From: Candidatus Didemnitutus sp.
Lineage (GTDB): Bacteria; Verrucomicrobiota; Verrucomicrobiia; Opitutales; Opitutaceae
Direction of reading: 5' to 3'
Assembly: GCA_017991595.1 (NCBI GenBank)
Contig: JAGOQJ010000008.1
Location: 1-64,000 of the forward strand
Length of the DNA: 64,000 nucleotides
In this document: positions 31,810 to 62,371 of the stretch, piece after piece
Position numbering within the stretch: the first letter of the stretch is position 1
Layout: every line of letters begins with the position of its first letter
The notes under the pieces: model-generated
Told to the model about the DNA's origin: nothing
The model's database searches: none
The model's input: only the letters and a program-made list of their open reading frames with translations
Program-made: the position numbers and the translations under genes

Positions 31810-33639
<1,830 letters not shown>

Positions 33640-33854
33640 ACCTGGCGGCTCCTGGTGAAGCGGAAAAAGGTTCACGGTGCGGCCGGGCTTCCGACTTGGC
33701 AAGGACGAAGCTTGGGGCGATTTCGTCCAAGGTGGTGGGGCGTCCGGGGAGTCCGGCAAGCCCTGTAAAACCGCTCGGACAGCGCGCCGGGCCGGCTTTC
33801 GGCTCGTGGTTCCGGGCTGAAGGACTGCCCGGCGCACTGTCAAAGGGTTCTACT

Positions 33855-33891
33855 AAAGAATGAGGCCCGGACTCCTTGCGGAATCCGGGCC
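33855..33891 (-). terminator. Terminator-like hairpin ending the structured region
   Basis: Read on the minus strand, bases 33891-33864 form 12 consecutive pairs (one a T-G wobble) closed by a GCAA tetraloop and followed by TCATTCTTT. On the plus strand the hairpin is followed by AAATTCGGG, so its polarity as a terminator is minus. The T tract is interrupted, so efficiency is uncertain. Confidence 0.6.
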
Positions 33892-34761
33892 AAATTCGGG
33901 AGTGGGCGTTCGCCACGCGCTCTTTCCCATGCGCACTTGTTTGGCGCTCTCGCCGGTTGGCGGGCCAAGTGCTTCCCGACGCTACTCACCGCGGCAAGCG
34001 ATGCTCTCGGTCTCATAGCGGGACCGTTCCGGCCCTTTCAGGCGCGGAATCTATCGAGTGAGGCCTCTACGCCCGGTTCGGTGACCACCTGCCGGTGGTT
34101 CGCTCGCCGGACGGGTGCTGGGACGCCTGCAAGAATACAGTTCGCACCGGCACCTTGACCACGGGGACGGCCACCGCTTCTGGCAGTGCGTTGGCCCCGT
34201 GCGACGGGTCTGACCTCTTACCTCTCAGGCTGCGTTCGACTTGCAGTTGGGTGATCCCGGTTTGCGGGACCGCCCCATCTTGGAAGGCTGGCGGGTTGTT
34301 GCCATCCCGCGCCGCTCCACGCCGCGTTCGTCTCTTTGCGCGCCCCGCCGATAGCGTCAGCCGGGCCTTTTGGAGGGCTTTTAACTCTCCCGAAACGATC
34401 GCTGCGTTCTGGTCGTGCAGTAGCAGCCGTAACCCTCTGGGTAACTGCATCAGCAACAGGCCCGAAACTGGCCTGCCGCCTGACTCGACTTGGCGCGGTT
34501 TCTTAATTCGCGCTTCGCCGCTCAGTTCCATTATTCGCAGTATCCCTCGCAGCTTGCACCGCGCGGGACTGGATCGGTTGCGACACCGTCCAGAGGAACT
34601 GGTGACATATGCCTGGCGCAGCTTGCGCTGCGGAGGGGAGGACCGCACCAGTTGCGGCCCGCCTTTCCCCGGTTGCCCGGGATTATCCCAGTCGCGCTCT
34701 CGACGGTTTTTTCATGCCGCCGCGCTTCTCGACTGTTCTATCAAGGAACAGTGATAATGTG

Positions 34762-34874
34762 CGGCTGACCGTTGTGGAAGTCCACCGGTTCTTACCCCCA
34801 AGTTGCTCACCTGCGCGCACGGTGAATAACTTGGGAGCGACGACTTGCTCACGAGTTGCTCACAAGGTCAGCCG
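34762..34874. repeat. Nested inverted repeat with three GTTGCTCAC-type direct repeats
   Basis: The outer stem 34762-34776/34861-34874 has 14 pairs and one bulged G. Inside is a hairpin with CCCAAGTT (34797-34804) / AACTTGGG (34828-34835) plus CACC/GGTG across a symmetric internal loop. The motif AGTTGCTCAC occurs at 34801-34810 and 34854-34863, with the variant ACTTGCTCAC at 34843-34852. Confidence 0.7.
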
Positions 34875-34918
34875 GCAGCCAATCCGCGCGCGTCCGGCAC
34901 GCACGGGCCGCGAATCCG

Positions 34919-37672
34919 CTAATTCTTGGGCTCCTCGGGCACGGGAGCGGTGGGCGCAGCCTTGCCGCGTCGAGCTTCGAGTTTCGGCCGGAGTTCGGCC
35001 GCTTTTGCGTGACCGTTGCGTTCGGCTTGGCGTGCCAGTTCGAGCGCCTCGTCCATGGTGGGCGCGCCGGCCGCACCGTTGTAGGTCAGGGCAGCGAGGA
35101 AATACTGAGCGTCGCTTTGGTTTTCCTTGGCGGCCGCGCGGAACAGTTCCAGCGCCTGCGCTTCGTCCTTTTCGACGTTGGTGCCGAAGTAAAACATCTG
35201 CGCGAGGTAGAACTTGGCGTTGCTGGCGCGGTCGGCGGCTTGGCGCATGAGCGCGACGCCCTCGGCGAGCTTCTTCTGTTCCAGCAGTCCCATGGCGAGT
35301 CGCACCAACTCCTCGCTGCTGATGCCGCGGGCGGCGAGTTCGGCATGTTTCTTCGCGCGGCGGGCGCTGGGTTTCACCCCCAGCCCGTCGCGATAGAGCA
35401 CGGCCAGCTTGGCGTGGGCGTAGCTGACCAGGGCGACGTCGCTCGTCTTCGTGAGATCGCGCAGCAGCGGGAAGAGCGTGGAGTATTCGCCTTTGCGGAT
35501 GAGGATGTCGCAGAAGACGCGGTAGAGGTCCGGCTCGTAGAAGCGCCGCATCGAGTAGCGGATCCAGAAGGAGCCGCGGTCGAGATCGACGCCGGTGGCC
35601 TGGCCGGTGAGGTAGTAATCGATGAGCCGGCGGAGGGCGAGCGCATGGCCTTCGAGGGCGGCCAGCCGATAGTGGTAGGCGGCTTCGGTGGGCGTGACGG
35701 GCAGGCCTTCACCGGCAGCGTGCATCTCTCCGAGATGGAAATGCGCAGTTTTCACGCCGAGTTCGCTCGCCCGATCGAAGTAGCTGTAAGCTTTCTCGAA
35801 GTCCTGCGGGACCAGGCGGCCCGCGTGATAAATCCGACCGAGGTTCAGGGCGGCAGGTCCGAAGCCGAGCTCGGCCGCCTTGGCGAAATGGGTGAGCATC
35901 TTCTCGCGGAGCACACGGGCGCTGGCTTCGTCCTGCGCCAGCACCGCCTGCTCGAGCTTGGCCTCGTGGTGCGAGCCGAGGTTGTTGTGGGCGCGTGCGT
36001 GTTCGGGCTCTTGCTTGAGCGCGGTGCGGTAGTAGGCCTCGGCCAGGTCTGGGTTGAGGGACATGCCGCGACCGTTGGCGGCTAAATAGGCGTAGCAGGC
36101 GCTCGCCTCGGCCAGCCCGGCCTCGCTGGCACGCTTGTAGAGGTCGAGCGCCCGGATATCGCTCTGCGGTGGGCTGACATCCATGAGCCCCGGAAATTGA
36201 TCGTAGATGTTGCCCATGAAGAGGAGCGCTTCGGGCACGTTTGCCTTTGCGGCGCGCTTGAGGAGATGCAGCGCATCCATCACATCCTGCTCAACACCGA
36301 GGCCGTAAAAATAGCGCTGACCGAGGAAAAATTCCGCGTAGTGATCCTTCTTTTTGACCGCAGCCCGGAGGAGGGCGACGACATCCTCGTCGGAGCAAAC
36401 CTTGTCCGGCGCGCGTCCGTTGGCGCCGAGGTAGCCGAGGTATTGCTCCGTGCGGTAGCGGGCAAACAGGGCTGCGGCCTTTGCCGGATCAGGCGCGGTG
36501 CCGATCCCGTGCTGAAGGCAAATGGCGAGATTCATGGTGGCGAAGGTGTTCTTCGGTTTCTCGCCTCCGCCGGCGCGTTCGAACCAATGGAAGGCGCGGG
36601 CCGGGTCGTGCACGGGGGAATCGGTCCGGCTGAGCAAAAGTCCCAACGCGTTCATGGCCCACACTTGGTCGCTCTCGGCGGCGATTTCATACCAACGGAC
36701 CGCCTCGGCAGGATTGTATTCCTTGGATTTTTTGTCCGCGAGTTGCGCGGCGATGCCCAGCTGCATCAGCTGCTGCTGGTTTTCCGCCTGTTCCTCGGCG
36801 TAGATCTCGAGGTCCGCGACGGCGAAGTCGTCGACGGACTTCAGCGTGCTGTAATTGTGCACCACGGTGACGCTGGCGCGGGCGGATAACCGGCGAGCGG
36901 TGGCGAGGAGCTCGCTCGCCTTCGTGGCATCACGGGGAACGCCGGAGCCGAAGGCGTAGTTCACGGCGGCGAGGAGCGCGGCGGGGTAGAGGCCGTCGCG
37001 TCCGCCCGGTCCGGCGTTGGCGGCAGCGAGGTAATGGGTCTGGGCCGCGGCGAAATTTTTCGCGTCGGTCGCAAGGGTGCCGAGAAAGAACTCGGCGGTG
37101 GCGCGGGCGACGTTCGCCGGGTCGCGCATTTGGTCGCCGACCACGCTGCTGACGGGCGCGGTGGCCGCGAGCTCCGCTGGCGGCACCGGCACCGTGAAGT
37201 CGGCATCAGGGGCGAGTGCGGCCTGGAGCCAGTCGGTGGCGAGTTTTTTGCTGCGGCGCACGCCGATGCCGCTCAGGTGGCAGACGCCCAGGCTGACCCG
37301 AGCGAAGCCGTTGCCGCGCGCGGCGGCGAGCTGCATGAGGTTGGCGGCCTTGCGGCGGTCCTCCTTGAAACCGTAGGCGCCCGTGAAGTGGAAGCTGGCG
37401 AGCAGCACTTGCGCATGCGTCAGTTCGCTGTCGGCGACGGATTGCAACGCGGTGCGTCCGGCGGCTTGTTCCTCGGGCTTGGTGCTGTCGAGCAACTTCA
37501 CGGCGCGCCAATAGGGGGCGAGGCGCGGATCCTCGCTCGGTGACGGGGTGACCACCATCTCTTCGGGCTCGTCGTTTTCGGCCGCGGAAGAGGCAGGGGG
37601 CGCGTCGTTCGCGAGGCAGAGGCCGGTGGCGAGCAGGGAGCCGCAAAGCAGGAGGCGAAAAACCTTGGTCAT
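34919..37672 (-). CDS. Exported Sel1/TPR-repeat protein
   Basis: A 917-residue protein with a signal peptide (MTKVFRLLLCGSLLATGLCLA) followed by a low-complexity acidic/Pro linker and then many helical Sel1-like repeats (pattern A-x2-LG-x2-Y-x-G-x-G-V-x2-D-x3-A). Examples are FARVSLGVCHLSGIGVRRS, AEFFLGQRYFYGLGVEQD and AALNLGRIYHAGRLVPQD. A basic Ala/Pro-rich tail ends it. Sel1 repeats form solenoids that hold protein complexes together. It probably acts in the periplasm. Its ATG overlaps the TGA of the upstream S41 protease gene (ATGA at 37669-37672), so the two are translationally coupled and may form a protease-adaptor pair. The latter is inference. Confidence 0.85.
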   Translation of the reverse strand: MTKVFRLLLCGSLLATGLCLANDAPPASSAAENDEPEEMVVTPSPSEDPRLAPYWRAVKLLDSTKPEEQAAGRTALQSVADSELTHAQVLLASFHFTGAYGFKEDRRKAANLMQLAAARGNGFARVSLGVCHLSGIGVRRSKKLATDWLQAALAPDADFTVPVPPAELAATAPVSSVVGDQMRDPANVARATAEFFLGTLATDAKNFAAAQTHYLAAANAGPGGRDGLYPAALLAAVNYAFGSGVPRDATKASELLATARRLSARASVTVVHNYSTLKSVDDFAVADLEIYAEEQAENQQQLMQLGIAAQLADKKSKEYNPAEAVRWYEIAAESDQVWAMNALGLLLSRTDSPVHDPARAFHWFERAGGGEKPKNTFATMNLAICLQHGIGTAPDPAKAAALFARYRTEQYLGYLGANGRAPDKVCSDEDVVALLRAAVKKKDHYAEFFLGQRYFYGLGVEQDVMDALHLLKRAAKANVPEALLFMGNIYDQFPGLMDVSPPQSDIRALDLYKRASEAGLAEASACYAYLAANGRGMSLNPDLAEAYYRTALKQEPEHARAHNNLGSHHEAKLEQAVLAQDEASARVLREKMLTHFAKAAELGFGPAALNLGRIYHAGRLVPQDFEKAYSYFDRASELGVKTAHFHLGEMHAAGEGLPVTPTEAAYHYRLAALEGHALALRRLIDYYLTGQATGVDLDRGSFWIRYSMRRFYEPDLYRVFCDILIRKGEYSTLFPLLRDLTKTSDVALVSYAHAKLAVLYRDGLGVKPSARRAKKHAELAARGISSEELVRLAMGLLEQKKLAEGVALMRQAADRASNAKFYLAQMFYFGTNVEKDEAQALELFRAAAKENQSDAQYFLAALTYNGAAGAPTMDEALELARQAERNGHAKAAELRPKLEARRGKAAPTAPVPEEPKN

Positions 37673-62244: not shown

Positions 62245-62294
62245 ATTCTGCTTGCCGTGGCCGTCGGAACTTCGCTTATTCACCGCTCCGTTAC

Positions 62295-62371
62295 GCAGCC
62301 GTAGCTCAATTGGATAGAGCATCTGACTACGGATCAGAAGGTTTGGGGTTCGACTCCCTACGGCTGCGCCA
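62295..62371 (+). tRNA. tRNA-Arg (anticodon ACG)
   Basis: A complete 77-nt cloverleaf. The acceptor stem is GCAGCCG/CGGCTGC with discriminator G and encoded CCA. The D arm is GCTC/GAGC, the anticodon arm TCTGA-CTACGGA-TCAGA, the T arm TGGGG-TTCGACT-CCCTA. The anticodon ACG (inosine-modified) reads CGU/CGC/CGA, the main arginine codons in this genome. Confidence 0.97.

Follow-up and report, generated by a model that had tools for sequence, protein, structure and literature searches.

A MISL RNA gene with a 5' domain, pseudoknots and DnaA-box-like promoter sites between a Sel1-repeat gene and typA in Candidatus Didemnitutus

The minus strand between a Sel1-repeat gene and typA in the window (the whole 64,000-nt stretch of Candidatus Didemnitutus sp. 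DNA analyzed here) encodes a long non-coding RNA, preceded by a set of short repeats and ending in an intrinsic terminator (Table 1). An Rfam covariance scan of positions 33000–37000 matched this strand to the MISL RNA family (RF03079) at 33905–34688 with 464.9 bits (E 5.8e-141; curated cut-off 274.6 bits), and as the match spans model positions 1–751 untruncated, it is full length. No RNA family other than MISL was found in the interval 33855–34918 at E values up to 1, and a scan of the whole window returned, besides MISL, just one tRNA. The RNA between the two genes is, with near certainty, MISL, a family already catalogued in the Verrucomicrobiota. The family reportedly originates from a 2017 paper in NAR, and to our knowledge few bacterial RNA families of unexplained function are as large. 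No function was stated in the open literature searched, in which a single paper names MISL, as an example of chemical mapping (PMC10925082).

Table 1. Features of the MISL locus in window coordinates, with the basis of each assignment
Feature	Positions	Strand	Basis and remarks
Whole MISL transcript, ~890 nt	33858–34749	-	Spans the conserved 5' hairpin through the terminator T tail; limits predicted from relatives
Rfam MISL core, model positions 1–751	33905–34688	-	Covariance match
5' domain outside the Rfam model (hairpin and covarying helix)	34689–34749	-	Covariation
GTTCCTTGATAGAAC element	34735–34749	-	Loop UGAU (34743–34740) pairs with 34606–34603; covariation in 109 sequences
GUCA (invariant UCA) of the UCACC motif, MISL 83–86, partner of the 5' loop	34603–34606	-	Covariation
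Pseudoknot helix a, 5' strand GGCTGC, MISL 261–266	34423–34428	-	Pairs with 34228–34233
Pseudoknot helix a, 3' strand GCAGCC, MISL 456–461	34228–34233	-	Pairs with 34423–34428
Pseudoknot helix b, 5' strand CTGCAA, MISL 443–448	34241–34246	-	Pairs with 34127–34132
Pseudoknot helix b, 3' strand TTGCAG in a hairpin loop, MISL 557–562	34127–34132	-	Pairs with 34241–34246
Pseudoknot helix c, 5' strand CTGGT in a hairpin loop, MISL 38–42	34647–34651	-	Pairs with 34409–34413
Pseudoknot helix c, 3' strand ACCAG, MISL 276–280	34409–34413	-	Pairs with 34647–34651
Likely pseudoknot helix d, 5' strand CGCTA in a hairpin loop, MISL 669–673	34016–34020	-	Pairs with 33980–33984
Likely pseudoknot helix d, 3' strand TAGCG, MISL 705–709	33980–33984	-	Pairs with 34016–34020
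Intrinsic terminator: 12-pair hairpin, GCAA loop, T-rich tail	33855–33891	-	Terminator scan and relatives
DnaA-box-like site TTATTCACC	34821–34829	-	~80 bp upstream of the RNA 5' end; position conserved in relatives
Weaker box-like repeat TTGCTCACC	34803–34811	+	Sequence reading; relatives have GGTGAATAA or GGTGAAGAA nearby
Weaker box-like repeat TTGCTCACG	34845–34853	+	Sequence reading
Weaker box-like repeat TTGCTCACA	34856–34864	+	11 bp from the repeat at 34845–34853; relatives hold GGTGAATAA there

The original prediction for this locus, a large structured RNA on the minus strand between the Sel1 gene and typA, is borne out by the Rfam match, the conservation of the RNA in relatives, covariation, the terminator, and an RNA-derived contig that contains MISL sequence, and the strong match to RF03079 makes this a known RNA, as the prediction itself had said such a match would. 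The interval 33855–34918 contains both the RNA proper (~33858–34749) and its promoter with DnaA-box-like sites (~34790–34865), a division that the prediction did not make. All four GNRA hairpins that it named lie on the minus strand where it placed them. Those at 34668–34681 (5 pairs) and 34617–34632 (6 pairs) are perfect GCAA hairpins; the one at 33864–33891 has the 12-pair stem, GCAA loop, and T-rich tail described but includes one G-T pair and is therefore not strictly perfect, and the GAAA hairpin at 34032–34043 is present but with a short stem of 3–4 pairs. The plus strand holds no GNRA hairpin of at least 4 pairs, and in folding against shuffles the minus strand (z = -5.88) surpasses the plus strand (z = -2.57). 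On its own, the GNRA excess (2 seen vs. 0.27 expected, with 31 of 1000 shuffles reaching 2) is weak evidence for a structured RNA, and the fold z-score and the 464.9-bit covariance score are much stronger. A protein-coding reading of the minus-strand open reading frame at 34067–34648, which would have spoken against an RNA, was rejected, as the frame gave no NCBIfam match and is broken by stops in 64 of 65 relatives.

Alignment with relatives revealed conservation past both ends of the Rfam model. A 5' domain of ~60 nt (GTTCCTTGATAGAACAGTC...GACTG) stops where the Rfam model starts, and its 13 pairs are ~97% canonical with compensatory changes among 65 Opitutaceae, two of them being significant against a tree-aware null in which substitutions are reshuffled along the tree. 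At the other, typA-proximal end, the hairpin likened to a terminator in the original prediction is the sole match of the terminator scan, and it is conserved and covaries in relatives. The transcript is predicted to start at the 5' hairpin, near 34749. In distant relatives, a TTGAC...17 nt...-10-like pair, read by eye, would set the start at this hairpin; a promoter scan of this locus found no good sigma-70 promoter on the minus strand. With the start predicted at the 5' hairpin and the end at the terminator, the transcript would be ~890 nt long.

The secondary structure of the core is well supported by comparative data, here evaluated with our own implementation of covariation statistics on a sequence-only alignment. 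Across the 65 Opitutaceae, the Rfam pairs are 87.5% canonical vs. 36%–41% when partners are slid, and 22 of them are significant by covariation; in 109 sequences from across the phylum, 39 of the 172 pairs reach significance. The covarying pairs that the original prediction called for are thus present under a tree-aware null. We also sought helices outside the Rfam model and scored them against 40 such nulls, using MISL coordinates in which the window position equals 34689 minus the MISL position. Helix a (94%–99% canonical in the 109 sequences) and helix b (88%–98%) both show compensatory changes and were matched by none of the 40 nulls, and helix c (99% canonical, also compensatory) was reached by one. 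The five positions of helix d are paired in every sequence, with CG/TA and AT/GC exchanges, although this helix does not stand out against the null (E 0.5) and is a likely one. These helices cross Rfam helices and are therefore pseudoknots, of which the alignment supports at least four, helices a to c and the 5'-loop contact described next. A sixth helix, joining MISL 187–191 to 221–225 from loop to loop, is plausible, without statistical support.

The 5' domain itself is tied to the body of the RNA by a further supported pairing, between the loop of its hairpin (MISL -54 to -51) and the invariant UCACC motif at MISL 83–86. Three of these pairs are invariant in the 109 sequences, the fourth covaries (TA in 52, AT in 25, and CG in 11), and at most one of the 40 nulls matched this helix. 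This bears on a different reading of the 5' element, namely that its GTTCYTTGA is a boxA, the antitermination site that recruits NusB and S10, as in rRNA leaders. The core GTTCYTTGA is common to the MISL element and the rRNA-leader boxA, with one core T changed in Opitutaceae, and in both cases it opens a long transcript that is not translated, which in the case of MISL would need protection from Rho. In the same genomes, GTTCTTTGAAA occurs in the rRNA leaders 135–183 nt before the 16S gene (located by a primer-site pattern), and in two genomes (G119 and G158) the leader shares 12 bases with the genome's own MISL element. Although we first favored a boxA on the strength of these leaders, the internal pairing has weakened it: the invariant UGA is accounted for by pairing with the invariant UCA at 84–86, with covariation alongside, and many MISL copies have C, A, or G as the fifth base, which in boxA is T. 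Unlike the boxA of rRNA leaders, the MISL element also coincides with the predicted transcript start and has a loop engaged in pairing inside the RNA. We therefore regard a role in recruiting NusB and S10 as rather unlikely.

Upstream of the RNA, MISL loci carry TTATTCAC(A/C) repeats in both orientations, often 11 bp apart, at about -50 to -115 from the MISL 5' end, with the main site at -79 to -83 in Opitutaceae and distant families alike. They are ~700-fold denser here than elsewhere, with 64 occurrences in 10.25 kb upstream of 50 loci vs. 10 in 1.18 Mb of background. An exact site precedes 88 of the 111 primary MISL copies and a relaxed site 106 of them, and of 61 genomes only 2 have a tandem site pair, which in each of them precedes MISL. 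The MISL promoter in the window has a single exact site, flanked by the weaker repeats; the assembly as a whole has 10 such sites, this TTATTCACC among them. Another of the ten lies at 62276–62284 on the plus strand, 11 bp upstream of a tRNA gene (62295–62368, plus strand).

These repeats resemble binding sites of the replication initiator protein DnaA, the consensus DnaA box being TTATNCACA. TTATTCACC fits this consensus at 8 of 9 positions, ending in C where the Escherichia coli consensus has A, and relatives in distant families have the exact DnaA box TTATTCACA upstream of MISL. In most of the Opitutaceae examined (loci L084–L104), a single TGTGAATAA is conserved ~15–40 nt ahead of the dnaA start codon, and four genomes have 10–14 exact sites each, of which dnaA invariably has one and MISL one or two. 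With so few sites per genome and at least one of them in the dnaA promoter as well as in the MISL promoter, the MISL promoter sites are probably DnaA boxes, and control of MISL by DnaA appears likely. The sites might instead belong to another DNA-binding regulator that shares the DnaA-box sequence by chance. That Opitutaceae often carry TTATTCACC instead of the exact TTATNCACA would fit such a regulator, but the conservation of the same motif before dnaA and the exact TTATTCACA in distant families make this explanation distinctly unlikely.

Five genomes contain a second MISL copy, and these second copies together with one more locus form a clade of their own, here called MISL-2 (support 0.989; the loci concerned are L291–L299 as well as L025, L179, L185, L215, and L221). 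MISL-2 copies retain the 5' element and adjoin unrelated genes, and no DnaA-box-like site was found upstream of any copy in this clade. This suggests that the sites belong to the regulation of the primary gene and not to the RNA itself. By eye, the MISL-2 neighbors include Hsp20 and universal stress genes (G155), a hibernation-factor-like gene (G361), and a ribonucleotide-reductase-like gene (G409). In addition, a genome of the window's own genus (G452) has two weak, diverged MISL-like copies (L300 and L301; 103 and 40 bits), one of which adjoins hrpB; they may be decaying.

The clustering of DnaA-box-like sites could also mean that they mark a chromosomal origin or an initiator-titrating locus, with the RNA aiding initiation, for example as an origin-opening transcript. 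In one genome (G099), MISL lies within ~170 kb of a GC-skew switch, but the sign change there runs in the terminus direction and does not coincide with MISL, and the skew has the same sign on either side of MISL in three others (G274, G122, and G091; G018 is ambiguous). Moreover, the gene context of the locus varies, and many complete genomes lack it. A location at oriC was rejected, with no origin-type skew switch at MISL in the sampled chromosomes, and gene-strand bias was uninformative on the position of the origin. MISL is thus not generally at the origin, a titrating role being a further possibility, and taken together we consider an origin or titration locus very improbable. The G099 chromosome (5957605 bp) has dnaA at the start of the record and changes of skew sign near 1.0–1.2 Mb and 4.3 Mb, so its dnaA does not mark the skew origin.

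The usual gene order in Opitutaceae is hrpB (divergent), MISL, and typA, with hrpB present in 55 loci and typA in 40; in the window, the Sel1-repeat gene takes the place of hrpB. In Verrucomicrobiales, MISL neighbors a lipoprotein gene, with cysK and rho downstream. Where Opitutaceae genomes lack MISL, hrpB still adjoins typA in five cases (L275, L277, L278, L286, and L287), and between the two genes of these five there is neither MISL nor a TTATTCAC(A/C) site. Two of these gaps (L277 and L278) measure ~1 kb and contain no MISL, sites, or Rfam match above the cut-off. Because this adjacency exists without MISL and its sites, MISL is a cassette separable from its neighbors and no leader of typA, and because its neighbors differ between orders and a terminator separates it from typA, it is a free-standing RNA gene. 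That MISL is a cis-acting leader (a riboswitch or attenuator) of typA is hardly tenable even though 40 loci have a co-oriented typA downstream and the RNA ends ~220 nt before the typA start here, as a conserved intrinsic terminator stands between them, other orders have cysK or other genes downstream while typA follows in Opitutaceae only, MISL-2 copies adjoin unrelated genes, and hrpB stays next to typA without MISL. A functional link between MISL and hrpB was likewise rejected, since their adjacency may be mere synteny, hrpB occurring in the same place without MISL too.

MISL was detected in 24 of the 288 genomes that represented the phylum and, at the family level, in 103 of 200, in line with the conservation expected by the original prediction. 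Scanning 84,980 species genomes with a sequence pattern gave at least 119 matches; the 80 matches listed all fit a profile of the MISL family and come from Verrucomicrobiota as far as they are titled, one being titled only 'bacterium'. The presence of the gene is patchy, since 36 MISL-negative genomes stayed negative with laxer filters, and with about half of the family's genomes devoid of it, MISL is therefore not essential to the lineage.

The only match to MISL in a viral collection is a 2347-bp IMG/VR contig (L270), in which a MISL fragment is fused to an RNA-phage maturation gene (PF03863, 5.7e-28). Such phages have no DNA stage. The contig, found within a viral DNA collection, is thus derived from RNA, and MISL RNA was probably present in that sample. 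The joint itself is presumably an assembly artifact, the contig being a chimeric one from a relative. A virus-borne MISL was rejected accordingly, this match being an assembly of MISL with an RNA phage and not a viral gene.

The MISL locus of the window belongs to RF03079 and is a free-standing unit with a conserved fold containing several pseudoknots and TTATTCAC(A/C) sites in its promoter. Our preferred reading, to which we assign a probability of roughly 0.7, is that of a free-standing gene with its own promoter region and terminator and a conserved pseudoknotted fold, likely under the control of DnaA, the product of which would act in trans as a scaffold or in an RNA-protein particle. DnaA would bind the phased sites that immediately precede the -35 region, and this binding could couple the transcription of MISL to replication initiation or growth. 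The RNA would then fold into a compact, pseudoknotted molecule; its action in trans as a scaffold or RNA-protein particle is suggested by analogy with the large RNAs OLE, GOLLD, and ROOL. A more specific proposal, in which DnaA switches on a ~890-nt, multi-pseudoknotted, ornate RNA that acts in trans in cell-cycle or growth control, and in which MISL-2 has escaped this control, is tentative, and we lean slightly against it. Still, a promoter with DnaA-box-like sites that is shared with dnaA and missing in the paralogous clade offers a concrete hypothesis on the timing of MISL synthesis, and the conserved DnaA-box-like sites give a first testable clue to the role of this RNA.

Comparison with known systems places these features in context. 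Like dnaA and other DnaA-controlled promoters, the MISL promoter has TTATTCAC(A/C) nearby, as is found before dnaA in the same genomes; it differs in that several sites are arrayed with 11-bp phasing upstream of the -35 position and in that its product is a non-coding RNA. With RF03079, the gene shares a full-length match, the same secondary structure, and the status of a free-standing gene in Verrucomicrobiota. The core is identical in kind, but covariance models cannot hold pseudoknots, and compared with the Rfam model, the 5' domain, the pseudoknots, the terminator, and the promoter sites are features absent from it. Together, the 5' domain and the pseudoknots define a molecule suited to structural and biochemical work, and constructs trimmed to the Rfam boundary would miss a domain that, as the covariation suggests, pairs with the body. 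Finally, OLE, GOLLD, and ROOL are large ornate bacterial RNAs that form homo-oligomers by cryo-EM (PMC12286853). MISL goes unmentioned in that study, and it has no Rfam cross-match to their families. What MISL has in common with OLE, GOLLD, and ROOL, beyond a function that is mostly unsettled, is its architecture, that of a long, heavily structured, and pseudoknotted non-coding RNA gene.
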